Below are positions 44,919 to 57,201 of a stretch of 64,000 nt of DNA, in pieces. The DNA comes from Paracoccus spongiarum. GTDB taxonomy: Bacteria; Pseudomonadota; Alphaproteobacteria; Rhodobacterales; Rhodobacteraceae. The DNA lies in contig NZ_JAVAMQ010000005.1 in the NCBI RefSeq assembly GCF_030732095.1, positions 62,001 through 126,000 of the forward strand, in the 5' to 3' direction. Made by a program: the position numbers and the translations under genes. The notes under the pieces are model-generated. The model ran no database searches and was not told the DNA's origin. It worked only from the letters and a program-made list of their open reading frames with translations. The first letter of the stretch is position 1. The number at the start of each line of letters is the position of its first letter.

Positions 44919-47495
44919 CTAGACGGCCGCGGTGATCCGCGGCGTCGTGCCGGGTTCGGCCCGCACCCGATCGATCAGCGCCTGCAGTTCCGGCCGGCAC
45001 GATCCGCAATTGCTGCCCGCGCCCAGGGCCTCGCCCAGCTGGCCGGTCGTGCACAACCCCTGCTGGCGGATCGCGCCGAGGATGGTGTTGACGCCGACAT
45101 TCAGGCAGGCGCAGACCGTCGCGCCCGGATCGGGACGGTCAAGCGCGGCCCGGCCGCTGAGGATCTGCGGCGCGCGGCTGCCCATCATCGCCACCACCGC
45201 CTCGCGCGACAGCGCCACCGGCGAGGGCGCGCAGAACAGCGCTGCCTGCACGATCCCCCCGAGGCTGAGCGCCAGCCGCACCGTGCCGCGCGACGGGTCC
45301 GACAACAGCGACAGGTCGGCATCCGGCAGGCCGAACAGCGCCCGGGCATGGGCAGGCCAGTCGGCGACCATCGCGGTGCCGGCCAGTTCGGCGCGCATCC
45401 CGGTGTCGCTGGTCGCGCAGGCCCAGTAGTCGCAATCCGGGCGGAACGGCGCGACCGATGCCGCGAAGCCGTACCAGACGGCGGCGTAGGGGCGGATGAC
45501 GACGCCGGCCTCTTTCAGCGCCGGCTGTCCCGACACCGGATCGACGCGCGCGGCGATCAGCGCGCCGACCCGCCCGGCGGCCGAATTGCGATCGGTCCAG
45601 TGGATCGGCGCGAAGGGCTGGCCCGGCGCCACCCGCTGCGTCACCAGGACCCGCAGCACCGCCCGCCCGCCCGGCGAGGTCACCTCGGCCAGCATGGCGG
45701 GCTGCAGGCCGATGCGGGCGGCGTCCTCGGGATGGATCTCGAGGAAGGGCTCGGCAATATGGGCCGACAGGCGGGCGGCGCGCCCGGTGCGGGTCATGGT
45801 GTGCCAGTGATCGCGCACCCGGCCGGTGTTCAGGCGCATCCCGACCTCCTGCCGCTGAGGGATGACCGCGATCATCCGGCCGCGCCCGTCGGGGGTGTGG
45901 AACACCCCGTCGCCGAAAAACCGCCCGCCCCGCCGCAGCGGCGATTGCGGCCACAGCGCGGGTGCCTCGTCCGTCAGCGCCGAGATGTCGAAATCGCCCC
46001 CCTGCGCGCCGGCGATGCCGCTGAGCGTCTTGTATTCGGCAAAGACCGCGTCCGCGTCGGGCCAGTCGAAGCCCGCAAACCCCATCCGCTGCGCCACGCC
46101 CGCGATGATCTTCCAGTCGGGCATCGCCGCGCCATGCGGCGCCAGAAAGCCCTGCTGCCGGCTGATCCGGCGTTCGGAATTGGTCACATGCCCGCTGCGT
46201 TCGCCCCAGCCGGCCGCCGGCAGCACCACATCGGCGCGGCGCGTCACGCCGGTCTCGACGATGTCGCTTGCGATCACCAGATCGCAGGTCGCGATGGCGC
46301 GGGCCACGCGGTCGGCGTCGGGCATCGACACGGTCGGGTTGGTGCCGATCACCCACAGCGCCTTGACGCGGCCCGCCTCGACGGCGCGGAACAGGTCGAC
46401 GGCCTTCAGGCCGGGCGCGGCGGCGATGGCCGGGCTGTTCCAGAAGCTCTGCACGGCGGCGCGGTGGCGCGGGTTGGCGATGTCGAGATGGCAGGCCAGC
46501 ATGTTGGCCATGCCGCCGACCTCGCGCCCGCCCATGGCGTTTGGCTGGCCGGTGATCGAGAAGGGGCCCATGCCCGGCCGGCCGATCCGGCCGGTGGCCA
46601 GATGGCAGTTGGTGATGGCGTTGACCTTGTCGGTGCCGCTGTCGGACTGGTTGATGCCCTGGCTGTAGACCGTCACGACCCGCTCGGCGCCGCACCACAG
46701 GTCGATGAAGCCGGACAGATCGACCCCCGCCGCCGCCGGGTCGCTGGCCCGCGCGGCCTCGACCGCCTCGGCATAACCGGACAGCCGGTCACGCCAGTGG
46801 GCCAGCCCGCGCGCGTCGATCGCGGCCAGCACGGCATTCCACACCGCCGCATCGCTGCCCGGCGCGATCGGCAGGTGCAGGTCGGCCAGATCGCAGGTCG
46901 CCGTGCGGCGCGGGTCGATCACCACCACCCGCATCCCGGGCCGCGCCGCCCGGGCGGCGGCCAGCCGCTGATGGATCACCGGGTGGCACCAGGCGAGGTT
47001 GCTGCCGACCAGCACCACCAGATTGGCCAGTTCCAGATCCTCATAGAGCCCCGGCACCGTGTCCGATCCGAAGGCGCGCACATGCCCGGCGACCGAGGAC
47101 GCCATGCACAGCCGCGAATTGGTGTCGATATTGGCGCTGCCGACAAAGCCCTTCATGAACTTGTTGGCGGCGTAGTAATCCTCGGTCAGCATCTGTCCCG
47201 AGCCGTAGATGGCGACCGAATCCGGGCCATGCGCGGCGATGGTGTCGGACAGGCGGCGGGCCACCAGCGACAGCGCCTCGTCCCAGCCGGCGCGGCGCCC
47301 GGCGATCAGCGGTTCGGACAGCCGGCCCTCGCTGCCCAGCGTCTCGGCCAGCGCCGCGCCTTTGGAACAGAGCCTGCCGAAATTGGCCGGGTGATCGGGA
47401 TCGCCGCTGACGGCAACCCCGGTGTCGGTCTTGCGGACCAGAACCCCGCAGCCCACGCCGCAATAGGGACAGGTCGAGCGGATGGGGCCGGTCAT
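44919..47495 (-). CDS. nasA: Assimilatory nitrate reductase catalytic subunit NasA
   Basis: Cytoplasmic molybdopterin enzyme reducing nitrate to nitrite. 858 residues. N-terminal 4Fe-4S cluster C9, C12, C16, C43 (TCPYCGVGC...LC), molybdenum cysteine C130 in SRLCMAS, Mo-bis-MGD domain, molydopterin dinucleotide-binding domain ('LNTGRVRDHWHTMTRTGR', in part), and a C-terminal BFD-like 2Fe-2S domain (about 795-858) with CAC...NCGSC. That domain passes electrons in. No separate NADH-dependent reductase subunit is seen in this unit, so the electron donor is open (ferredoxin or NirB-type flavoprotein). Last gene of the nas operon. Confidence 0.95.
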   Translation of the reverse strand: MTGPIRSTCPYCGVGCGVLVRKTDTGVAVSGDPDHPANFGRLCSKGAALAETLGSEGRLSEPLIAGRRAGWDEALSLVARRLSDTIAAHGPDSVAIYGSGQMLTEDYYAANKFMKGFVGSANIDTNSRLCMASSVAGHVRAFGSDTVPGLYEDLELANLVVLVGSNLAWCHPVIHQRLAAARAARPGMRVVVIDPRRTATCDLADLHLPIAPGSDAAVWNAVLAAIDARGLAHWRDRLSGYAEAVEAARASDPAAAGVDLSGFIDLWCGAERVVTVYSQGINQSDSGTDKVNAITNCHLATGRIGRPGMGPFSITGQPNAMGGREVGGMANMLACHLDIANPRHRAAVQSFWNSPAIAAAPGLKAVDLFRAVEAGRVKALWVIGTNPTVSMPDADRVARAIATCDLVIASDIVETGVTRRADVVLPAAGWGERSGHVTNSERRISRQQGFLAPHGAAMPDWKIIAGVAQRMGFAGFDWPDADAVFAEYKTLSGIAGAQGGDFDISALTDEAPALWPQSPLRRGGRFFGDGVFHTPDGRGRMIAVIPQRQEVGMRLNTGRVRDHWHTMTRTGRAARLSAHIAEPFLEIHPEDAARIGLQPAMLAEVTSPGGRAVLRVLVTQRVAPGQPFAPIHWTDRNSAAGRVGALIAARVDPVSGQPALKEAGVVIRPYAAVWYGFAASVAPFRPDCDYWACATSDTGMRAELAGTAMVADWPAHARALFGLPDADLSLLSDPSRGTVRLALSLGGIVQAALFCAPSPVALSREAVVAMMGSRAPQILSGRAALDRPDPGATVCACLNVGVNTILGAIRQQGLCTTGQLGEALGAGSNCGSCRPELQALIDRVRAEPGTTPRITAAV

Positions 47496-47501
47496 GCCGG
47501 G

Positions 47502-48353
47502 CTACTCGGCCGGCACGGCGATGGCGGCGCGGTCGCCGGCCTCCTGCGGTTCGCGCGCCGGCGAGGTCTTGTAGTGGGTGGCGTAGATCATCGCGCCGAC
47601 GAAGGTCAGCCCGCCGACCAGATTGCCGATGACGGTCGGGATCTCGTTCCAGACCAGATAGTCCATGATGGTGAAGTTGCCGCCCAGCAGCAGACCCGAG
47701 GGGAACAGGAACATGTTCACGATGGAATGTTCGAAGCCCATGTAGAAGAAGATCAGGATCGGCATCCACATCGCCATGATCTTGCCCGAGACGCTGGTCG
47801 ACATCATCGCCGCGACCACCCCGGTCGAGACCATCCAGTTGCACATCACCGCGCGGATGAAGAGGGTCAGCATCCCGCCCGCGCCATGCGCGGCATAGCC
47901 CACCGTTCGTCCCTCGCCGATATGGCCGATCTGCTGGCCGACGGCGTTGGGTTCGGTGGAAAAGCCGAAGGTGACGATGATCGCCATGAAGATCGCGACG
48001 GTGAAGGCGCCGGCGAAATTGCCCGCGAAGACCAGCCCCCAGTTGCGCCACAACCCGGTCATGGTGACGCCCTTGCGCCGGTCCAGCAGCGCCAGCGGCA
48101 CCAGCGTGAACACGCCCGTCAACAGATCGAAGCCCAGCAGATACAGCATGCAGAACCCGACCGGGAACAGCAGCGCCCCGATCAGCGGATTGCCGGTGTT
48201 GACGGTCACGGTGACCGCAAAGGCCGCCGCCAGCGCCAGGATCGCGCCGGCCATATAGGCGCGGATCAGCGTGTCCTTGGTGGACATGAAGACCTTGGCC
48301 TCGCCGGCGTCGATCATCTTTTTCGCGAAATCGGTCGGATTGACATAGGACAT
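47502..48353 (-). CDS. nirC: Formate/nitrite transporter family protein, nitrite channel
   Basis: 283 residues, FNT-family pentameric channel. Six hydrophobic segments; conserved 'LRNWGLVFAGNFAGA'-like (NWGLVFAGNFAGA), 'FIRAVMCNWMVSTGV' and 'GFEHSIVNMFLFPSGLLLG' regions. The gene lies between nirD and nasA, so nitrite is the expected substrate. Start ATG at 48353 is 13 bases after the nirD stop side. Confidence 0.92.
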   Translation of the reverse strand: MSYVNPTDFAKKMIDAGEAKVFMSTKDTLIRAYMAGAILALAAAFAVTVTVNTGNPLIGALLFPVGFCMLYLLGFDLLTGVFTLVPLALLDRRKGVTMTGLWRNWGLVFAGNFAGAFTVAIFMAIIVTFGFSTEPNAVGQQIGHIGEGRTVGYAAHGAGGMLTLFIRAVMCNWMVSTGVVAAMMSTSVSGKIMAMWMPILIFFYMGFEHSIVNMFLFPSGLLLGGNFTIMDYLVWNEIPTVIGNLVGGLTFVGAMIYATHYKTSPAREPQEAGDRAAIAVPAE

Positions 48354-48366
48354 TGGCCGGTTCCTT

Positions 48367-48726
48367 TCAGGCGGCGTTGCGGGCGGTGGCGGGGCGGGCG
48401 ACCACCTCGGCTGCGACATGGACGCGGCCGGCCTCGACCCGCACCGGATGGGTGCGCACCGCGCCCTCGTCGGCGCCCTGCGCCAGTCCGGTGTTCAGGT
48501 CGAACACCCAGTTGTGCAGCGGGCAGGTGATGGTGTGGCCGGCGACGATGCCTTCGGACAGCGGCCCGCCCTTGTGCGGGCAGCGGTCGTCCAGCGCGAA
48601 CACCCGGTCGTCATGGGTGCGAAACAGCGCCACGCAGCCCTCGGCGGTACGGATCAGCCGCGCGCCCTGCGGCGGGATGTCGTCCAGCGCGGCGATGTCG
48701 AGCCATTCGGTCGTCTCGGCGGTCAT
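48367..48726 (-). CDS. nirD: Nitrite reductase small subunit NirD
   Basis: 119 residues, Rieske-type fold with cluster ligands C49/H51 (CPHKGG) and C68/H71 (CPLHNW). In many NirD proteins these ligands are missing; here they are complete, so a 2Fe-2S cluster is likely. Partner of NirB; starts four bases inside the nirB stop (ATGA overlap). Confidence 0.95.
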   Translation of the reverse strand: MTAETTEWLDIAALDDIPPQGARLIRTAEGCVALFRTHDDRVFALDDRCPHKGGPLSEGIVAGHTITCPLHNWVFDLNTGLAQGADEGAVRTHPVRVEAGRVHVAAEVVARPATARNAA

Positions 48727-51149
48727 TCGGCAGCCTCCAGTCGCAGGTCGATGAGCGGTGCGAATTCGTCGCGCGCGCCGGGTTTGGCATGTTCGGCCCA
48801 GGGATCCTTGCGATAGACCGACTGGCTGATCTCGAAGCGTTCCACCAGCGCGGCCCGCTGTTCCAGGTCGTCAACGACCTGCGCCTTGACCCAGTCGAGG
48901 CCAACCCGCGCGGTCCATTTCCACGCCCGGTCCAGATAGCGGGCATTTTCGCGGTACAGCTGGACAAAGGCGGTGATGACCGCGACGGCCTCGTCCTCGG
49001 TGGGGACCGAGACCAGCAATTCGGTCTCCTTGACCTCCATCCCCGCCGCGCCCGAGACGCTGACCTGATAGCCGCTGTCGACGCAGACCACGCCGACATC
49101 CTTGCAGGTCGCCTCGGCGCAGTTGCGCGGGCAGCCCGAGACGCCCAGCTTGACCTTGTGCGGCGTCCAGGACCCCCACAGCAGCTTTTCCAGCCGGATC
49201 CCGAGGCCGGTCGAATCCTGCGTGCCAAAGCGGCAGAACTCGCTGCCCACGCAGGTCTTCACGGTGCGCAGGCCCTTGGAATAGGCATGGCCGCTGACCA
49301 TGCCGGCGTCGTTCAGGTCCGCCCACATGGCGGGCAGGTCCTCCTTGCGCACGCCCAGCAGGTCGATGCGCTGGCCGCCCGTCACCTTGACCATCGGCAC
49401 GTTGTACTTGTCGGCGGCATCGGCGATGGCGCGCAGTTCCGCCGGCGTGGTGACGCCGCCCCACATCCGCGGCACCACCGAATAGGTGCCGTCCTTCTGG
49501 ATGTTGGCGTGGTTGCGTTCGTTGACAAAGCGCGACTGGCGGTCGTCTCGATAGTCCAGCGGCCAGTCGGCCAGCAGGTAATAGTTCAGCGCGGGTCGGC
49601 ATTTCGCGCAGCCATCGGGCGTGCTCCAGCCGCATTCCTGCATCACGGCGGGCATGGATTTCAGCCCCTTGGCCTTGATCAGCCGGCGCACGTCCTCATG
49701 CGCCAGATCGGTGCAGCCGCAGATGCAGTCGGCGGTCTGGACCTCGCCGCCCAGGGTCAGCGCCATCACCTGGCTGACCAGCCCGGTGCAGGTGCCGCAG
49801 GAGGCGCTGGCCTTGGTCGTCGCGCGCAGCTTGTCCAGCGTGTCGGCACCCGCCAGAACGGCATCCATGATCGCGCCCTTGCAGACGCCGTTGCAGCCGC
49901 AGATTTCTGCGTCAGGCGGCAATGCTGCAACGGCCGCCATAGGGTCCACGCTGCCCCCGCCCTGGAAGGCCGGGCCGAAGATCAGCGTGTCGCGCATCTC
50001 GCTGATGTCGGTGCCGTCCTTGATGAGCCCGAAGAACCAGTTGCCATCGGCGGTGTCGCCATACATGACCGCGCCCACCAGCCGGTCGGCCTCGATCACC
50101 AGCCGCTTGTAGATGCCGCGTCCCGGATCGCGGAACACGATGTCCTCGCGGCCCGGCCCGTCGGCGAAGTCGCCGGCGCTGAACAGGTCGCAGCCGGTGA
50201 CCTTCAGCTTGGTCGCGGTCTGCACCGGGCGGAAATCGGCGGGCTGGCCCATCAGCGCCGCGGCCAGCACCCTGGCCTGGTCGTAAAGCGGCGCGACAAG
50301 GCCGAACAACTGCTTGTCATGTTCCACGCATTCGCCGATCGCGTAGATCGACGGATCGCTGGTCTGCAACTGGTCGTTGACGGTGATGCCGCGCTCGACC
50401 TCGATGCCGGCGTCATTGGCCAGCCGGGTCTCGGGGCGGATGCCCACGGCCATCACCACGAGGTCGGCGCCATAGACGGTGCCATCCTCCAGCAGCACGG
50501 CCTCGGCCCGGTCCTCGCCCAGGATCGCCTTGGTGGCACCCTTGCAATGGACGGTGATGCCCCGCGCCTCCAGCGCCTTTTGCAGCAGATAGCCGGCCGA
50601 GGGGTCCAGCTGGCGTTCCATCAGATGGCCCATGATGTGGATGACCACCACCTCCATGCCGCGCATCTGCAAGCCGGCGGCGGCTTCGAGTCCCAAGAGC
50701 CCGCCACCGATCACCACCGCCTTCGCGCCGGGCCTGGCCGCCGCGATCATGGTGTTGGTGTCGTCGAGGTCGCGATAGGCGATGACGCCGGGCAGGTCGC
50801 GGCCGACGACCGGGATCATGAAGGGCGCGCTGCCGGTGGCGATCACCAGCCGGTCATAGGGCACCTCGCCGTTCTGGCCCGTCACCACCTTGCGGGCGCG
50901 GTCGATGCCCACGACATGCTCGCCAAAGCGGGTGGCGATGCCGCGTTCGGCATACCACTGGTCGTCGTGGGTGACGATCTCTTCATAGGTCTTGTCGCCC
51001 GACAGCACCGGCGACAGCATGATGCGGTTGTAGTTGCCGCGCGGCTCGGCATTGAACAGGGTGATCTGGTAGGGCGCGGCGGCGTCGGTCAGATGTTCCA
51101 GCATCCGGCCCGAGGCCATGCCCGCGCCGATGACGACAAGCTTTTCCAT
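48723..51149 (-). CDS. nirB: NADH-dependent nitrite reductase large subunit NirB
   Basis: Reduces nitrite to ammonium with NADH, in the cytoplasm. 808 residues: FAD/NAD(P)-dependent oxidoreductase (about 1-390; 'VVIGAGMASGRMLEHL'), two BFD-type 2Fe-2S elements (about 415-530), and a sulfite/nitrite-reductase domain with the siroheme/4Fe-4S cysteines C633, C639 (CVGSEFC) and C673, C677 (GCPRNC). Start at 51149 overlaps the nrtC/D stop by one base (TGATG); a TTG codon immediately before it is ignored. Confidence 0.96.
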   Translation of the reverse strand: MEKLVVIGAGMASGRMLEHLTDAAAPYQITLFNAEPRGNYNRIMLSPVLSGDKTYEEIVTHDDQWYAERGIATRFGEHVVGIDRARKVVTGQNGEVPYDRLVIATGSAPFMIPVVGRDLPGVIAYRDLDDTNTMIAAARPGAKAVVIGGGLLGLEAAAGLQMRGMEVVVIHIMGHLMERQLDPSAGYLLQKALEARGITVHCKGATKAILGEDRAEAVLLEDGTVYGADLVVMAVGIRPETRLANDAGIEVERGITVNDQLQTSDPSIYAIGECVEHDKQLFGLVAPLYDQARVLAAALMGQPADFRPVQTATKLKVTGCDLFSAGDFADGPGREDIVFRDPGRGIYKRLVIEADRLVGAVMYGDTADGNWFFGLIKDGTDISEMRDTLIFGPAFQGGGSVDPMAAVAALPPDAEICGCNGVCKGAIMDAVLAGADTLDKLRATTKASASCGTCTGLVSQVMALTLGGEVQTADCICGCTDLAHEDVRRLIKAKGLKSMPAVMQECGWSTPDGCAKCRPALNYYLLADWPLDYRDDRQSRFVNERNHANIQKDGTYSVVPRMWGGVTTPAELRAIADAADKYNVPMVKVTGGQRIDLLGVRKEDLPAMWADLNDAGMVSGHAYSKGLRTVKTCVGSEFCRFGTQDSTGLGIRLEKLLWGSWTPHKVKLGVSGCPRNCAEATCKDVGVVCVDSGYQVSVSGAAGMEVKETELLVSVPTEDEAVAVITAFVQLYRENARYLDRAWKWTARVGLDWVKAQVVDDLEQRAALVERFEISQSVYRKDPWAEHAKPGARDEFAPLIDLRLEAAE

Positions 51150-52792
51150 CAAGCGGCATCCTTCTTGTGGCCATGTTCGTATTCTTCCAGGAAACCGATG
51201 ATTTCCTCGCGATAGGCGTAGTAGTCGGGATGGGCCAGCAGTGCCTTGCGACTGCGCGGGCGCGGCAGTTTGACCTCGGTGATCCTGCCGATGGTGGCCT
51301 GCGGGCCGTTGGTCATCATCACCACCCGGTCGGCCATCAGGATCGCCTCGTCGACATCATGGGTGACGCAGACGGCGGTGACCTTGGTGCGGTCCCAGAC
51401 CTCCATCAGCACCTCCTGCAACTCCCAGCGGGTGAGGCTGTCCAGCATCCCGAACGGCTCGTCCAGCAGCAGCAGCTTGGGCGACAGCGCGAAGGCGCGG
51501 GCGATGCCGACGCGCTGGCGCATCCCGTTCGACATTTCCGAGGCCTGCCGGTGCATCGCGTCGCCCAGGCCGACCCGTTCAAGATAGTATTCGACCACCT
51601 CCTGCCGTTCGGCGCGGCTGGCGGCGGGATAGACCCGGTCGACGCCGATGGCGACATTCTCGCGCGCGGTCAGCCAGGGAAACAGGCTGGGCGACTGGAA
51701 CACCACGGCGCGTTCGGGATCGGCGCCCTGGACATGGCTGCCATCCAGCACGATGGCGCCCTTGCTGATCGGGTTCAGCCCGGCGGCCATGGTCAGCACG
51801 GTGGACTTGCCGCAACCCGAATGGCCGATCAGCGACACGAACTCGCCCTTCTTCAGGGTCAGGTTCACATCCTCGACCACGGTCAGCGGGCCTTTCGGGG
51901 TGGGATAGATCTTGTGCAGCTGCGAGAATTGCAGATAGCGCTCGTCATTGCGGGCGGCGGCCGCGCGGGCATAGGCGCGCGGCATGGCGTGCAGCGGCGT
52001 CACGGCGGGCAGGCTGCGGCGCTGTTCGGCGCTGGCCTGCGCGCCGGCAGCGATCAGGTGGCCGGTGACGCGGGCGCGCAGGTCCTTGAAGGCGGGATCG
52101 TGGTTCATCTCGGTGCGGTCGCGTGGACGCGGCAGGGCGACGCGGAACTCGGCGCCGATGCTGCCATCGGGATCGAGGCACAGGATCCGGTCGGCCAGCA
52201 CGATCGCCTCGTCCACATCGTTGGTGATCAGCACCACGGTCTTGCGGTCGGCCTGCCAGATCGCCTCGATCTCGTCGGCCAGATTGGCACGGGTCAGCGC
52301 GTCCAGCGCCGACAACGGCTCGTCCAGCAGCAGGATTTCGGGGTCCATCGCCAGGGCGCGGGCGATGCCGACCCGCTGGCGCATCCCGCCCGACAATTCC
52401 GCCGGGCGGCGCGTGGCGGCGTGGGACAGCCCGACCATGGCGATGTATTTTGCCACCCGCGCCCGGACCTCGGCCCCAGGCAGCTTCGGCATGGCCGAGC
52501 GGACGGCCAGCGCGATGTTGCCGGCGACGGTCAGCCAGGGCATCAGCGAATAGGACTGGAACACCACGCCGCGTTCCGGCCCCGGCCCGGTGACGGGCTT
52601 GCCGCGAAAGCGGACCTCGCCGGCGCTGGGCATCTGAAGCCCCGCCATCAGGCTGATCAGCGTCGTCTTGCCGGTGCCCGAGAAGCCGAGGATGGCGACG
52701 AATTCGCCCTCTTCCACCGCAAGGTCGATGCCCTTAAGGATGGTCTGGCTGCCGAAATCCTTGCGGACGTGGTTCAGGTGCAGGATCGCCAT
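51149..52792 (-). CDS. Nitrate ABC transporter, two fused ATPase domains (NrtC/NrtD-like)
   Basis: 547 residues with two ABC domains in one chain. Domain 1 (about 1-245): Walker A GFSGTGKT at 36-43, signature LSGGMRQR, Walker B LLLDEPLSALD. Linker about 245-285 is basic and Ala-rich. Domain 2 (about 290-530): Walker A GHSGCGKS at 323-330, degenerate signature MSNGMRQR typical of NrtC-type proteins. In cyanobacteria NrtC and NrtD are separate; here they are one protein, so the complex would be NrtA, NrtB dimer and one ATPase chain. Follows nrtB by four bases. Confidence 0.88.
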   Translation of the reverse strand: MAILHLNHVRKDFGSQTILKGIDLAVEEGEFVAILGFSGTGKTTLISLMAGLQMPSAGEVRFRGKPVTGPGPERGVVFQSYSLMPWLTVAGNIALAVRSAMPKLPGAEVRARVAKYIAMVGLSHAATRRPAELSGGMRQRVGIARALAMDPEILLLDEPLSALDALTRANLADEIEAIWQADRKTVVLITNDVDEAIVLADRILCLDPDGSIGAEFRVALPRPRDRTEMNHDPAFKDLRARVTGHLIAAGAQASAEQRRSLPAVTPLHAMPRAYARAAAARNDERYLQFSQLHKIYPTPKGPLTVVEDVNLTLKKGEFVSLIGHSGCGKSTVLTMAAGLNPISKGAIVLDGSHVQGADPERAVVFQSPSLFPWLTARENVAIGVDRVYPAASRAERQEVVEYYLERVGLGDAMHRQASEMSNGMRQRVGIARAFALSPKLLLLDEPFGMLDSLTRWELQEVLMEVWDRTKVTAVCVTHDVDEAILMADRVVMMTNGPQATIGRITEVKLPRPRSRKALLAHPDYYAYREEIIGFLEEYEHGHKKDAA

Positions 52793-52796
52793 TGGC

Positions 52797-53867
52797 TTAC
52801 CTCTTGTCCGAGAAGGTGATCAGCGACTGGATCGCGAACATCATCCGGTCCAGAAGGAAGCCGATGATGCCGATGGTCAGCACCGCGACCATGATCCGGG
52901 CAAGGCTGTCGGACGACCCGTTCTGGAACTCGTCCCAGACGAATTTGCCAAGGCCGGGGTTCTGGGCAAGCATCTCGGCCGCGATCAGCACCATCCAGCC
53001 CACGCCAAGCGACAGCCGGAGGCCGGTGAAGATCAGCGGCAGCGCCGAGGGCAGCACCAGCCGCGTGACCCGCGCCCAGGGGCTGAGCTTCAGCACCCGC
53101 CCGACATTCACCAGATCGCGGTCGATCGAGGCGACCCCCAGCGAGGTGTTGATCAGCGTCGGCCACAGCGAACACAGGGTCACGGTGATGGCCGAGACGA
53201 TGAAGCTGCGCGGCAGCCCGCCCTCGCCCGTGGCCAGCGCCGAGACGACCATCGTCACGATCGGAAGCCAGGCCAGCGGGCTGACCGGCTTGAAGATCTG
53301 CACCAGCGGGTTGATCGCGGCGTTGACGGTGGGCGACAGCCCCGCGGCGATGCCCAGCGGCACGGCGATCACGGTGCCGATCAGGAAGCCCGCGAAGACC
53401 GTCTGGATCGAGGTCCAGATCTGCATGTAGAAGGTCGGCCGGCCCGTATAGTCGCGGTTCTGCACCTTGTCGGGCTGGCCATCCGCGATCAGCCGTGCGT
53501 TGCGTTCGTCCTGCCGGACGTAGAATTCGTCGCGCTTCTCGCCTTCGCGGACGGCATCCTGATGCAGCGCGACCGCCTGGGACCAGACCTGCGCCGGGCC
53601 TGGCACCGACCCCAGCGATGTCTGGACCTGTGGCGCCAGCATGGCCCACAGCCCCAGAAAGGCCAGGATCGCCAGCACCGGCGCGAACAGGGTCTGCCAC
53701 AGCACCTTCAGCTGCCCGCGCGGATCGTCGCCGGCGGCGGCGCGCAGCAGCGGCGCCATGAACGGCAGGCCCAGCACGCGGAACCAGCCCTCGGCGCGGG
53801 TGATCCGCATGAGACGCCGGGCCTTGCGATCCGGGGCGGAAAGCTGGGTAGGGTCGATGGCTGCCAT
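52797..53867 (-). CDS. nrtB: Nitrate ABC transporter permease NrtB
   Basis: 356 residues: one N-terminal helix ('FAPVLAILAFLGLWAML'), a periplasmic-facing insert of about 90 residues, then the binding-protein-dependent transport domain with helices 'TVFAGFLIGTVIAVPLGIA' and the EAA-like loop around 'PLAWLPIVTMVVSALATG'. NrtA and the ATPase genes flank it. Start at 53867 with GGAGGACATC as RBS; in the same operon ten bases behind nrtA. Confidence 0.93.
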   Translation of the reverse strand: MAAIDPTQLSAPDRKARRLMRITRAEGWFRVLGLPFMAPLLRAAAGDDPRGQLKVLWQTLFAPVLAILAFLGLWAMLAPQVQTSLGSVPGPAQVWSQAVALHQDAVREGEKRDEFYVRQDERNARLIADGQPDKVQNRDYTGRPTFYMQIWTSIQTVFAGFLIGTVIAVPLGIAAGLSPTVNAAINPLVQIFKPVSPLAWLPIVTMVVSALATGEGGLPRSFIVSAITVTLCSLWPTLINTSLGVASIDRDLVNVGRVLKLSPWARVTRLVLPSALPLIFTGLRLSLGVGWMVLIAAEMLAQNPGLGKFVWDEFQNGSSDSLARIMVAVLTIGIIGFLLDRMMFAIQSLITFSDKR

Positions 53868-53877
53868 GATGTCCTCC

Positions 53878-55239
53878 TCAGCCCTGCACGCCATTGCCCG
53901 CGACGGTCTGGTCGCCCTTCAGGCCGATCGGCAGGCTGTCCAGGTAGGCGTTGGGCGAGCGGCCGTCATAGGGGATCGCGTCGATGAAGTCGGCGGTGGC
54001 GGGCTTGAAGCCGTCGCTGTCCCAGGGGAAGTCGGCCTCGACGGCCAGCCCTTCGTCCACCAGCATCCGCGCGGCTTCCAGATAGATCTCGGGCTTGTAG
54101 ACCGATTTCGCGGTATCCAGATACCAGTCGTCGGGTTTGGCCTCGGCAATCTGGCCCCAGCGGCGCATCTGGGTCAGGGTCCAGATCGCGTCGGAATAGA
54201 ACGGGTAGGTCGCGTTCTGCCGGAAGAAGATGTTGAAATCCGGCGCCGGGCGGGTGTCGCCCTTCTCGTATTCGAAGCTGCCGGTCATCGAATTGGCGAT
54301 CACCTGCGCGTCGGCGCCGACATATTCGGGGCGCGCGAGGATCTCGACCGCCTCGGCGCGGTTGGCGCCGCCATCGGCATCCAGCCACTCGGCCGCGCGG
54401 ATCAGCGCCTTGGTCAGGGCCAGCACGGTCTGCGGGTTCTGTTCGACGAATTCGGCGGTCAGGCCGAACACCTTCTCGGGGTTGTTCTTCCAGATCTGGT
54501 CGTCGGTGACGACCGGCACGCCGATGCCCTTGAACACCGCCTGCTGGTTCCACGGTTCGCCCACCGAATAGCCGTCGATGGTGCCGGCCTCCATGGTCGA
54601 GGGCATCTGCGGCGGCGGCGTGACCGAGATCAGCACATCGGCGCCGACCTGCCCCGTGGCGTCGCCATCCGCATAGAAGCCCGGATGCACGCCGCCCGCC
54701 GCCAGCCAGTAGCGCAGTTCGTAATTATGGGTCGAGACCGGGAACACCATGCCCAGGTTGAAGGGCTTGCCGGCCTCGCGATAACCCTCGATCACCGGCT
54801 GCAGCGCGCTGGCGCTGATCGGATGCCGGGGCTTGCCGTCGGGCCCGGCCGGGATGCCCGGCTTCATCGCGTCCCAGACGGCGTTGCTGACGGTGATCGC
54901 ATTGCCGTTCAGGTCCATCGAGAAGGGTGTGACGATATGCGCCTGGGTGCCGTAGCCGATGGTCGCGGCCAGCGGCTGCCCCGCCAGCATGTGCGCCCCG
55001 TCAAGCTGCCCCGAGATGACGCCGTCCAGCAGCACCTTCCAGTTGGCCTGCGGCTCCAGCGTGACATAGAGGCCCTCGTCCTCGAAGAAGTGCTTTTCAT
55101 AGGCGATGGCCAGCGGGGCCATGTCGGTCAGCTTGATGAAGCCAAGCGTCAGGTCGGGCTTCTCGACATCCAGCATGTCGGCGAGGGCCGGGCCGGTCAG
55201 GGCGGTGCTGGCGATCAGGGCGAGGGCGAGGCGGGTCAT
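53878..55239 (-). CDS. nrtA: Nitrate-binding protein NrtA
   Basis: 453 residues; Sec signal [20 protein letters not shown] and the CmpA/NrtA-type solute-binding domain ('[22 protein letters not shown]', in part; '[22 protein letters not shown]', in part; '[16 protein letters not shown]'). Captures nitrate or nitrite in the periplasm. RBS CAGGAG eight bases before the ATG. Immediately upstream is the ANTAR-type attenuator (55265-55377), so expression depends on antitermination. Confidence 0.95.
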
Positions 55240-55264
55240 GTGCGCTCCTGTGGGCAAAATAGAA

Positions 55265-55320
55265 AAAGCCGCCGAAACACCTGCCGCAGGGAGGAGGGGG
55301 CGGCAGGGTTCGGCGGCTTT
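55265..55320 (-). terminator. Intrinsic terminator in the nrtA leader
   Basis: On the minus strand AAAGCCGCCGAA (55309-55320) pairs with TTCGGCGGCTTT (55265-55276), 12 perfect base pairs, with a 7-pair inner stem CCTGCCG/CGGCAGG, then a T-rich stretch (TTTTTCTATTTT) before the nrtA RBS. It would stop transcription before nrtA unless prevented. Functions as the off-state of the attenuator. Confidence 0.85.
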
Positions 55321-55327
55321 ACCGAGA

Positions 55328-55345
55328 TGCCCGGACGTTCGGGCA
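55328..55345 (-). ncRNA. ANTAR target hairpin P2
   Basis: Minus strand TGCCCG-AACGTC-CGGGCA: six-base stem with a hexaloop whose first base is A and fourth G, the conserved pattern for ANTAR-protein target RNA. It lies eight bases before the terminator stem. Confidence 0.7.
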
Positions 55346-55359
55346 GAGGGAGGAATTCG

Positions 55360-55377
55360 CGAAGCCTCGTTGCTTCG
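55360..55377 (-). ncRNA. ANTAR target hairpin P1
   Basis: Minus strand CGAAGC-AACGAG-GCTTCG: six-base stem, hexaloop with A at 1 and G at 4. Together with P2 it is the tandem target of NasT-type antiterminators; binding of NasT would favour P1/P2 over the terminator. Confidence 0.7.
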
Positions 55378-55465
55378 TCCCCTTCAGGTTGCGCGATGAT
55401 TCGCCGCCTGTCACGGCCTTGCCGCGTCGCCCATGCCGCAATGCAGCAATCTGCTGAAACTTTGA

Positions 55466-56623
55466 TCAGCCGCCGGGCAAAAGATCAAAAATCCGGCCGT
55501 CGAAGAACTGGTTCCGGCCCAGCAGCACGGTGCCGCGGTTGGCACCGGCCAGAATCGGCTGCGGGCACGCGCCCTCGACCTTGGCCGAGGCGGCGGGCAG
55601 CACCGCGACATCGCCCAGATGCTGGCGATAGAGGTCGGGACGCCAGACCGACTGGGCGATCCGCATCGCGGCATCGGCATCGAGGCGCAACCGCTGCGAC
55701 ATCTGCCGCCCGATCCAGGCCGCCTGCGAGCGCCAGGGAAAATTCGCCGCGCCGTCGTGGAAGGCGATGAAACCGGGGCTGTCCACGCCATCGCCCGTTG
55801 CCGACAGCAGCAGCCGCGACGACAGGGCGCGTTCGATGACCTCGGGCTCGATCGCCAGCGCATCGTCGCGGGCCAGCATCTCGGATGCGGTGGCGCGCGA
55901 TTCGGGCTGATCCAGCCAGCGGCAAGCCCGCCACACCGCCCGCATCAGCGCGCCGCCGCGGTCGGGATTGGCCTCGAACCAGCCGCGCCGTGTGGCCAGC
56001 ACCTTTTCGGGCGCCGCCGTCCAGATCGCGGTGCCGGGCAGCAGCAGTTCGGCCAGCCGCTGCGACACCGCCGAGGACCCCCAGGGTTCGCCGACGCAGA
56101 AGGCCTCGATCTCTCCGGCCAGCAGCGCCTCGGCGATCTGAGGCGGTGGCACGGTGACGGTGGACAGGCCGGGCATGTCGCCCAGCCACAGATGCAGCAG
56201 CTCGGCATGCATCGAAAAGGGAAAGGGCACGCCGAAGCGCAGGCCCGCGGGCCGGGCCCGCAACAGCGCGTCGCGCGCGGCCAGCGCATCGCGGAAATCG
56301 ATGCGCAGGCCCGCCCCGCGCAGGTCGTCGGCCAGCGCCGGACTGACCCCAATCACCTGCCCGCCCAGAGACAGCACCAGCGCGGTCTCGAAATCGACGG
56401 CGGCGCCGCCAAGCCCCAGCCGGCCCGCGATGGGCACCGCCGACAGCATCTGCGCCGCATCGACCTGCCCCAGCGCCAGCATGTCGCGCAGCATCGACCA
56501 GGTGCGCGCCCGGTGCAGCCGGATCGCCAGCCGTTCCTCTTCGGCGAAGCCCATGCGGTCGGCGACGATCAGCGGCGCCGCATCCAGGAGCGGGATGAAA
56601 CTCAGATCGACCGCGCGGCTCAT
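55466..56623 (-). CDS. nasS: Nitrate/nitrite sensor NasS (NrtA-like, cytoplasmic)
   Basis: 385 residues related to NrtA but without a signal peptide, so cytoplasmic. 'FIPLLDAAPLIVADRMGF', 'LHRARTWSMLRDML', 'FCVGEPWGSSAVSQRL' and 'GRNQFFDGRIFDLLPGG' (in part) mark the NasS/NrtA family. Known role: without nitrate or nitrite it holds NasT; ligand binding releases NasT. Its start overlaps the nasT stop (ATGA). Confidence 0.92.
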   Translation of the reverse strand: MSRAVDLSFIPLLDAAPLIVADRMGFAEEERLAIRLHRARTWSMLRDMLALGQVDAAQMLSAVPIAGRLGLGGAAVDFETALVLSLGGQVIGVSPALADDLRGAGLRIDFRDALAARDALLRARPAGLRFGVPFPFSMHAELLHLWLGDMPGLSTVTVPPPQIAEALLAGEIEAFCVGEPWGSSAVSQRLAELLLPGTAIWTAAPEKVLATRRGWFEANPDRGGALMRAVWRACRWLDQPESRATASEMLARDDALAIEPEVIERALSSRLLLSATGDGVDSPGFIAFHDGAANFPWRSQAAWIGRQMSQRLRLDADAAMRIAQSVWRPDLYRQHLGDVAVLPAASAKVEGACPQPILAGANRGTVLLGRNQFFDGRIFDLLPGG

Positions 56624-57201
56624 TTCAGCATCTCCGAGGCGGTGACGATGGCTTGCGCGATCTCGGCGATGCGGCGGTTCTTTTCCATCGCGGTCTTGCG
56701 CATCAACGCATAGGCCTCGTCCTCGGGCAGGTTGCGGGCGCGCATCAGGATGCCCTTGGCCCGGTCGATCAGCTTGCGTTCCTCCAGCGCGGCGCGGGTC
56801 TGGGCCAGTTCGGTGCGCATCCGGTGCAGCATCCCGAACCGCGCCACCGCCGCGTCCAGCACGGGCCGCAACCGCGCCGGCGTCAGCCCGTCCACGACAT
56901 AGGCGGCGACCCCCGCCTCGATCACGGCACGGGTCATCTGGCTGTCCGAGCGGTCCACGAAGATCGCCACCGGCCGTTCCAGCGGGCCGGAGGCCAGCGT
57001 CAGTTCCTCAAGCTCGTCGCGCGAGGGGTTGGCCGCGTCGATCAGCACCAGATCGGGTTGCAGCGCGGCGATGCGGCGGGCAAGGCCGGGGCCGGGCTCG
57101 ATCACGCGCAGGCTGACGCTATCGCCCGCCAGGGCGTCAAGGACGGTCGCGGCGCGGTCGGGCTCGCCCTCGACCACGACGATGAACAGGGTGTCGGGCA
57201 T
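56620..57201 (-). CDS. nasT: ANTAR-domain antiterminator NasT
   Basis: 193 residues: receiver-like pseudo-REC domain (about 1-120, 'DLVLIDAANPSRDEL') and C-terminal ANTAR domain (about 130-190, 'LIDRAKGILMRARNLPEDEAYALMRKTAM' in part). ANTAR proteins bind tandem hexaloop RNA and prevent termination. The target found at 55328-55377 supports this. First gene of the nas unit; promoter candidate at 57228-57256. Confidence 0.94.
   Translation of the reverse strand: MPDTLFIVVVEGEPDRAATVLDALAGDSVSLRVIEPGPGLARRIAALQPDLVLIDAANPSRDELEELTLASGPLERPVAIFVDRSDSQMTRAVIEAGVAAYVVDGLTPARLRPVLDAAVARFGMLHRMRTELAQTRAALEERKLIDRAKGILMRARNLPEDEAYALMRKTAMEKNRRIAEIAQAIVTASEMLK

Follow-up and report, generated by a model that had tools for sequence, protein, structure and literature searches.

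In ANTAR-dependent control as published, the second of two hairpins overlaps the terminator (PMC3369931 and PMC3369936; here and below, PMC sources are cited for the parts available), and in the current model a regulator dimer first binds hairpin one and is then passed on to hairpin two, which has to lie within a narrow distance. Within the genus studied here, Paracoccus denitrificans harbors a leader between nasS and the structural genes; the nasA leader RNA, described there as a 'series of hairpins' (data not shown), is bound by its NasT, and work with the P. denitrificans proteins showed release of NasT from NasS by nitrate (PMC3795266); hairpin HI was needed for expression and growth on nitrate, and mutation of hairpin HII left induction nearly unchanged (PMC5424462). 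The EutV leaders of Enterococcus faecalis carry two hairpins, P1 and P2, with hexaloops having A at position 1 and G at position 4 (A1/G4), a P2 that overlaps an intrinsic terminator, and a receiver-ANTAR regulator (PMC3369931, PMC8934654); the 2022 structure paper proposes that the EutV dimer binds P1 first and is then transferred to P2, and a 20-nt extension of the linker abolished antitermination (PMC8934654).

Nitrate-related counterparts were (i) the nasF leader of Klebsiella oxytoca, where a nitrate-induced nas operon is antiterminated through P1 and P2, but by the one-component NIT-ANTAR sensor NasR and with two hairpins described (PMC3369936, PMC7496416); (ii) the Pseudomonas nirBD leader NalA, where NasS/NasT antitermination acts on a nitrite-reductase operon (PMC12830290, PMC8092218); and (iii) the nosR leader of Bradyrhizobium diazoefficiens, which displays NasST-dependent antitermination with targets away from nasTS but controls nos genes (PMC6759348).

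The window (the whole 64-kb stretch of DNA that was analyzed) contained nasT and nasS upstream of a run of nitrate assimilation genes, all on the minus strand:

56620..57201, minus strand: nasT, 193 aa, receiver-like domain plus C-terminal ANTAR domain (PF03861, 74.9 bits)
55466..56623, minus strand: nasS, 385 aa, NrtA-like presumed nitrate sensor, adjoining nasT (PF13379, 180.5 bits)
53878..55239, minus strand: nrtA, nitrate ABC transporter substrate-binding protein, predicted first regulated gene, named by context (PF13379, 308.9 bits)
52797..53894, minus strand: nrtB-like permease (TIGR01183, 153.6 bits, below the cut-off of 209)
51149..52792, minus strand: two-domain nitrate ABC ATPase (TIGR01184, 584.6 bits, two stretches)
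48723..51152, minus strand: nirB, siroheme nitrite reductase large subunit (TIGR02374, 873 bits)
48367..48726, minus strand: nirD (TIGR02378, 103.4 bits)
47502..48356, minus strand: formate/nitrite (FNT) channel, nirC-like (TIGR00790, 142.6 bits, below cut-off)
44919..47495, minus strand: nasA, assimilatory nitrate-reductase-like molybdoenzyme, named by context (highest-scoring models Fdh-alpha and NasC, none reaching its cut-off)

The sequence-only reading of this DNA had named the operon nrtAB–fused ATPase–nirB–nirD–nirC–nasA. Among these genes, only the ATPase, nirB, and nirD exceeded their NCBIfam cut-offs; nrtA, like nasT and nasS, exceeded its Pfam cut-off, and the matches of the nrtB-like, FNT-channel, and nasA genes fell below cut-off. 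Profile matches nevertheless back the order of the genes from nasT to nasA. Since one Pfam family (PF13379) covers both NasS and NrtA, these two names rest on context. NasT was indeed an ANTAR protein encoded upstream of the leader beside nasS, as had been proposed, and it was the sole ANTAR match in the draft genome. Aligned to EutV (6wsh; EutV numbering counted by hand), it kept K143, R147 (K147 in EutV), and Y164; in EutV, Tyr164 stacks on the flipped loop G4 (this and the roles of the RNA-contact residues are given in PMC8934654). With nasT beside nasS and both upstream of nitrate assimilation genes, the leader belongs to the NasST system by gene content. The nasS stop codon ended at 55466 and the nrtA ATG stood at 55239, confirming a leader of 226 nt. 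Two adjacent NasS-like genes on the same strand were seen in one relative (G121:C4:87800-90283, part of L094).

The leader contained three A1/G4 hexaloop hairpins followed by a terminator:

55360..55377, minus strand: P1, presumed ANTAR recruitment hairpin CGAAGC[AACGAG]GCTTCG, C:G closed
55328..55345, minus strand: M, middle hairpin TGCCCG[AACGTC]CGGGCA, G:C closed, 8-nt form
55310..55325, minus strand: P2, presumed antiterminator hairpin TCGGT[AAAGCC]GCCGA, U.G closed, overlapping the 5' arm of the terminator
55265..55320, minus strand: intrinsic terminator, 12-pair outer stem AAAGCCGCCGAA...TTCGGCGGCTTT plus apical stem (seen in sequence and folds)
55256..55267, minus strand: U tract of the terminator, TTTTTCTATTTT

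P1 and M were the two six-pair stems (loops AACGAG and AACGTC) reported earlier, and they were present together with the 12-pair terminator and its T tract. The minimum-free-energy fold of the full leader (-103.2 kcal/mol, z -3.75, with 0 of 200 shuffles as good) formed P1, M, and the terminator. P1, M, and P2 all formed when their stretch was folded alone; a shorter fragment beginning 3 nt before P1 refolded, with GGACG pairing to CGUCC in the M loop. P2, absent from the earlier description, started 2 nt after M; its 5' arm (55325-55321) lay outside the terminator, and its 3' arm was common to both structures (P2 at 55325-55310, terminator at 55320-55265), an overlap read directly from the anatomy of the leader. 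Because the published second hairpin overlaps the terminator, as P2 does, the canonical pair here is P1 plus P2, with M between them.

The leader is accordingly read, with a probability of roughly 0.78, as a NasST-controlled three-hairpin transcription attenuator in which NasT would antiterminate at P2 and M would act as a relay or a spacer. Gene context, the conservation of the leader (148 of 205 leaders; see below), and a match to the covariance model R2 (see below) give good support to NasTS attenuation; the claim of a complete NasTS attenuation switch is partly supported, with an error of detail in its choice of hairpins, the terminator being overlapped by P2 and not by M. By analogy with the studied relatives, from which both the NasS–NasT chemistry and the read-through are taken, NasS would hold NasT without nitrate, so that RNA polymerase would run into the terminator (55320-55265), leaving the nrtA operon off; with nitrate, freed NasT would dock on P1 first and then stabilize P2, whose shared 3' arm would block the terminator and let the operon be read through. 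Across the 34 nt between P1 and P2, M would, we infer, probably serve as a stepping stone or a folded spacer.

The window showed the ANTAR dual-hexaloop pattern in part: P1 and P2 (and also M) displayed A1/G4 hexaloops, but loop closure was C:G in P1, U.G in P2, and G:C in M, while the NasR SELEX consensus has a C:G pair closing the loop (PMC7496416), and the P1–P2 gap exceeded the short linkers of such RNAs (5-12 nt in eut leaders and 2-25 nt in an actinobacterial search). On account of the P2 closure and the long linker, the leader was not filed as a standard ANTAR dual-hexaloop RNA, although it is predicted to work like one. No Rfam family scored above threshold on the leader.

Conservation was surveyed in leaders downstream of nasS. 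At E<=1e-40, 117 of 295 genomes of the same family had a NasS match; within the genus, NasS matches occurred in 57 of 101 genomes, and each count includes the window's own genome. The 219 loci collected (110 family, 29 genus, and 80 named) gave 205 distinct leaders after duplicates and stretches below 150 nt were dropped, 66 of the named ones being kept. A parser demanding A1/G4 hexaloops in P1 and P2 plus a terminator overlapping P2 accepted 148 of the 205 (89/110 family, 6/29 genus, and 53/66 named), against 0/205 dinucleotide-shuffled leaders and 0/205 reverse complements; with any of the 15 remaining base choices at loop positions 1 and 4, it accepted at most 1 of the 205. Loop closure was C:G in 146 of the 148 for P1 and likewise for P2, a closure that the parser favors but does not require. 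The 57 rejected leaders, which speak against the three-hairpin reading, included 23 of the 29 genus loci; among the accepted genus loci, L139 looked like a false positive.

Sequence comparison of the accepted leaders was based on alignment A1, which was reduced from 148 leaders to 145 (linker of at least 19 nt), 130 (score and gap filters), 112 (redundancy), and finally 81 (by hand, 31 leaders with odd M or spacing being left out). Paired cells made up 87.1% in these 81 leaders, compared to 75.0% in shuffled ones and 20-45% when the columns were slid by 1-3 either way, figures inflated by the selection of rows by the parser (pairing beside loops) and by the M score; the covariation score was 0.389 vs 0.172. 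P1 covaried strongly, with double changes at 5 of its 6 pairs, one of them being C-G in 30 leaders and G-C in 30. The 5' arm of P2 covaried with its partner in a few leaders; P2 otherwise varied little, as expected from a sequence shared with the terminator. Alignment A2 consisted of 54 hand-picked leaders of the 81 (without L002, L112, and L113) and favored a regular 7-nt M, so the invariance of G4 in A2 was not counted as evidence, and the M G4 count below was taken from all 145 linkers.

The P1–P2 gap had a median of 32 nt in the 148 leaders (at least 19 nt in 145 of them), compared to the 5-12 nt of EutV linkers (PMC3369931, PMC8934654). In the window, the gap of 34 nt was split by M into steps of 14 nt (P1–M) and 2 nt (M–P2), each inside the 2-25 nt range. 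A hairpin scoring at least 11 was found in 117 of the 145 linkers, compared to 24.7% of shuffled linkers, and of these 117 hairpins 76 lay 4-6 nt before P2 and 98 lay 9-16 nt after P1. The commonest form, CCC-N7-GGG, occurred in 72 of the 145 linkers (about 3 expected from shuffles), followed by 31 N8, 9 N6, 3 N5, and 1 N9 forms, with 29 linkers having none. The N7 loop followed the consensus RANGAYN, with G at position 4 in 69 of 72 (19% in shuffled linkers) and in 49 of 52 distinct heptamers, and its N1 and N7 were able to pair in 43 of 72, in five combinations. The 117 delimited loops comprised 40 of 5 nt, 31 of 6 nt, 25 of 4 nt, 18 of 7 nt, and 3 others; A1/G4 hexaloops were a minority form of M (31 hexaloops, 14 of them A1/G4). 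The window and its congeners L112 and L113 displayed the 8-nt form with a G:C-closed A1/G4 hexaloop, GCCCG[AACGTC]CGGGC or GCCCG[AAAGAC]CGGGC. In full-leader folds, M was populated at 0.94-0.99 in the window, 0.01-0.20 in L112, and 0.01-0.99 in L113, so M was not uniformly supported by folding. RNAalifold on the 81 leaders of A1 did not predict M, perhaps because of the mixture of 7- and 8-nt apical classes.

L261, from another family, showed the same order of three A1/G4 hexaloops, all of them C:G closed and separated by 14 and 6 nt. The EutV leaders differ from the window in having no middle hairpin described, and in using phosphorylation instead of a NasS partner; more widely, the available parts of PMC3369931, PMC3369936, PMC3795266, PMC5424462, PMC6759348, PMC7496416, PMC8164766, PMC8934654, PMC8092218, PMC10620151, PMC10746234, PMC12830290, and PMC3927594 made no mention of a third hairpin in an ANTAR leader. 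Inspection by eye of L272, L273, and L278 (other families) showed, a few nt ahead of P2, a hexaloop hairpin resembling M, with no clear P1, a layout that could be a simpler form of the element.

Two roles of M were weighed. M may tentatively be taken as a third NasT-binding hairpin: a NasT dimer recruited at P1 would step to M and from there to P2 while RNA polymerase lengthens the transcript; since M splits the over-long P1–P2 distance, such a relay would keep each step short. The main rival to this relay, and a serious possibility, is that M is a structural spacer which brings P1 near P2 and whose loop is unread by NasT. The varied length of the M loop (mostly 4-7 nt in the 117 delimited loops) and the constraint on P1–P2 distance in EutV (PMC8934654) are what a spacer would give, but a spacer would not need the G4 found in 69 of the 72 heptaloops. 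If the relay is right, this would be a three-site antiterminator rather than a two-site ANTAR motif, with spacing rules applying to each step and not to P1–P2 as a whole. Either way, one bacterial family commonly has a natural arrangement that exceeds the distance of the current model and places, between the two hairpins, a conserved one whose loop is similar; the hand-over can be tested through one base of the M loop, and searches built on a short linker can miss or mispair such elements, as happened in the sequence-only reading.

The closing pair of P2 (55321, 55314) was U.G in the window but C:G in L112 and L113, which keep CGGC[AAAGCC]GCCG where the window has CGGU; the P2 population before the terminator forms was 0.00-0.08 in full-leader folds of the window, far less than in the congeners (up to 0.58 in L112 and 0.68 in L113), a point against the three-hairpin reading. 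That the C-to-U change has weakened the switch of this strain is rather doubtful: changed closing pairs, even with pairing kept, abolished induction in the P1 of eutP (PMC3369931), but U.G is still able to pair, and a single draft genome is concerned, in which one base could be an assembly error. The U.G pair may weaken the switch, NasT may make up for it, or it may be a one-base error of the draft.

It is improbable that P1 and M form the dual hexaloop bound by NasT, with P2 taking no part, which was the pairing of the sequence-only reading. Both are A1/G4 hexaloops 14 nt apart, within the 2-25 nt given in PMC8164766, and both fold stably in the window; however, neither shares bases with the terminator, the M loop of the window is G:C closed against the NasR SELEX consensus, only 14 of the 117 delimited M loops in relatives are A1/G4 hexaloops, and P2 is conserved in 148 of 205 leaders. 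A dual site of P1 and M as the whole switch was rejected as the main reading, since it does not touch the terminator.

The three-hairpin attenuator was further compared to the P. denitrificans leader (L221). In the mapping made here, the long P1 stem of L221 had its 3' end precisely where HI is placed, 137 nt ahead of the nasA ATG, and a hairpin with loop GACGAT ended near the 91 nt given for HII. The two leaders shared their place between nasS and the structural genes (PMC5424462, PMC3795266), and in this mapping HI stood at the P1 position, but the P. denitrificans operon, nasABGHC, begins with another transporter, and the later hairpins and terminator-like stem of L221 were arranged differently. 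Since the P. denitrificans nasA leader has already been tested experimentally, the switch described here is a variation of a known kind; the exact sites, earlier called undescribed, were not found in the literature searched, but an equivalent leader had already been mutated (PMC5424462). In many Paracoccus loci (L118-L124, L126-L133, L135-L138, and L221), the leader was of another build and contained several A1/G4 hexaloop hairpins, and the P. denitrificans-type leader displayed a GAAAGCG/CGCTTTC stem and a poor U tract. Over 300 nt, the leaders of two congeners showed no difference from those of Paracoccus sp. M683 and of another named Paracoccus, and that of a third was identical to that of P. 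denitrificans. With 23 of 29 genus leaders failing the parser, many of them of the P. denitrificans layout, the P1–M–P2 form is a feature of the family to which Paracoccus itself supplies numerous exceptions.

Covariance model R2 drew on 54 leaders, the window and the two congeners nearest to it being left out. The window leader was its best match in the 64 kb (24.2 bits, E 0.00026) and ranked first in the genome, though only at E 0.0157 (next, C67:37789 at E 0.102). R2 also matched L112-L116 among the congeners and, from other alphaproteobacterial families, L260, L261, and L262 (below 1e-4) and, more weakly, L267 and L263, and in the same search it gave no match to L221 of P. denitrificans, L265, L273, or L278. 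A stricter, class-wide R2 scan gave matches at E<=0.01 in 10 of 385 genomes, the window's own not among them, which marks the exact layout as mostly a feature of the family.

Model R1, built from family leaders with the window included, found one site in the window's own genome (E 3.8e-8; next 0.29) and matched 94 of 248 family genomes (E<=0.01). Nine other R1 loci of the own genome (L223-L231) were treated as chance, eight overlapping long open frames and L225 being a 17-nt partial match. Fourteen further R1 sites away from the nasS leader were inspected (sites such as those of G002, G062, G104, G108, G124, G195, and G245 being left out): 7 stood before CysG-like starts, 1 before cobA, 3 before nrtA-like genes, and 1 before a nirB-like gene (below cut-off), while 2 were chance-like (L239 and L243 looked like chance matches). 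The same P1–M–P2–terminator element preceded the seven cysG-like genes and the cobA (L232-L237, L241, and L242) and was matched by R2 as well; NCBIfam confirmed two of the seven cysG-like genes and the cobA. Siroheme is the cofactor of NirB, and the cysG and cobA sites therefore fit one nitrate regulon. In several relatives, siroheme synthesis is probably part of the NasT regulon; these sites suggest that nitrate also turns on the supply of the nitrite reductase cofactor in some of them. A link between NasT and a siroheme gene was already known in P. aeruginosa, where cobA lies in the nirBD operon (nirBD-PA1779-cobA; PMC8092218), and separate cysG leaders were not mentioned in the available parts of the NasT literature examined, including PMC12830290 and PMC8092218. 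In the window's own genome, a rough scan for C:G-closed A1/G4 hexaloops gave no P1/P2-like pair upstream of the sole above-cut-off cobA, and no CysG N-terminal domain was found there, although nirB needs siroheme; the dehydrogenase/chelatase step may be divergent or encoded elsewhere.

Two further motifs were located in the leader:

55289..55297, minus strand: CCTCCTCCC / CCUCCUCCC, an anti-Shine-Dalgarno motif of the alpha-r14/cuckoo type in the apical loop of the terminator (seen in sequence)
55435..55447, minus strand: conserved palindrome GCTGCATTGCGGC / GCNGCANNGCNGC shortly after the nasS stop, a possible promoter or operator element

CCTCCTCCC was the sole copy in the window (0.92 expected by chance), and the alpha-r14/cuckoo type was not recovered as such, RF02344 scoring below its gathering score and the leader holding one exact CCUCCUCCC copy rather than several hairpins. 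That the terminated leader is a trans-acting small RNA working through the CCUCCUCCC loop, like alpha-r14/NfeR1, is very improbable: CCTCCTCCC occurred in 21 of 148 terminator apical regions (0.2 expected from shuffles), alpha-r14 small RNAs carry the motif, NfeR1 forms a double-negative loop with NtrBC (PMC10746234), and the leader RNA of nirBD in Pseudomonas is known by a separate name, NalA (PMC12830290), but the Rfam ar14 match on the leader reached 18.5 bits against a threshold of 58.8 (E 8.5), the motif was absent from 127 of the 148 apical regions and is expected about once per 64 kb by chance, and CCTCCTCCC may be a common terminator loop in this bacterial family. The palindrome, as the pattern GC.GCA..GC.GC, was present in the first 90 nt of 51 of the 148 leaders, compared to 0.9 expected in shuffles.
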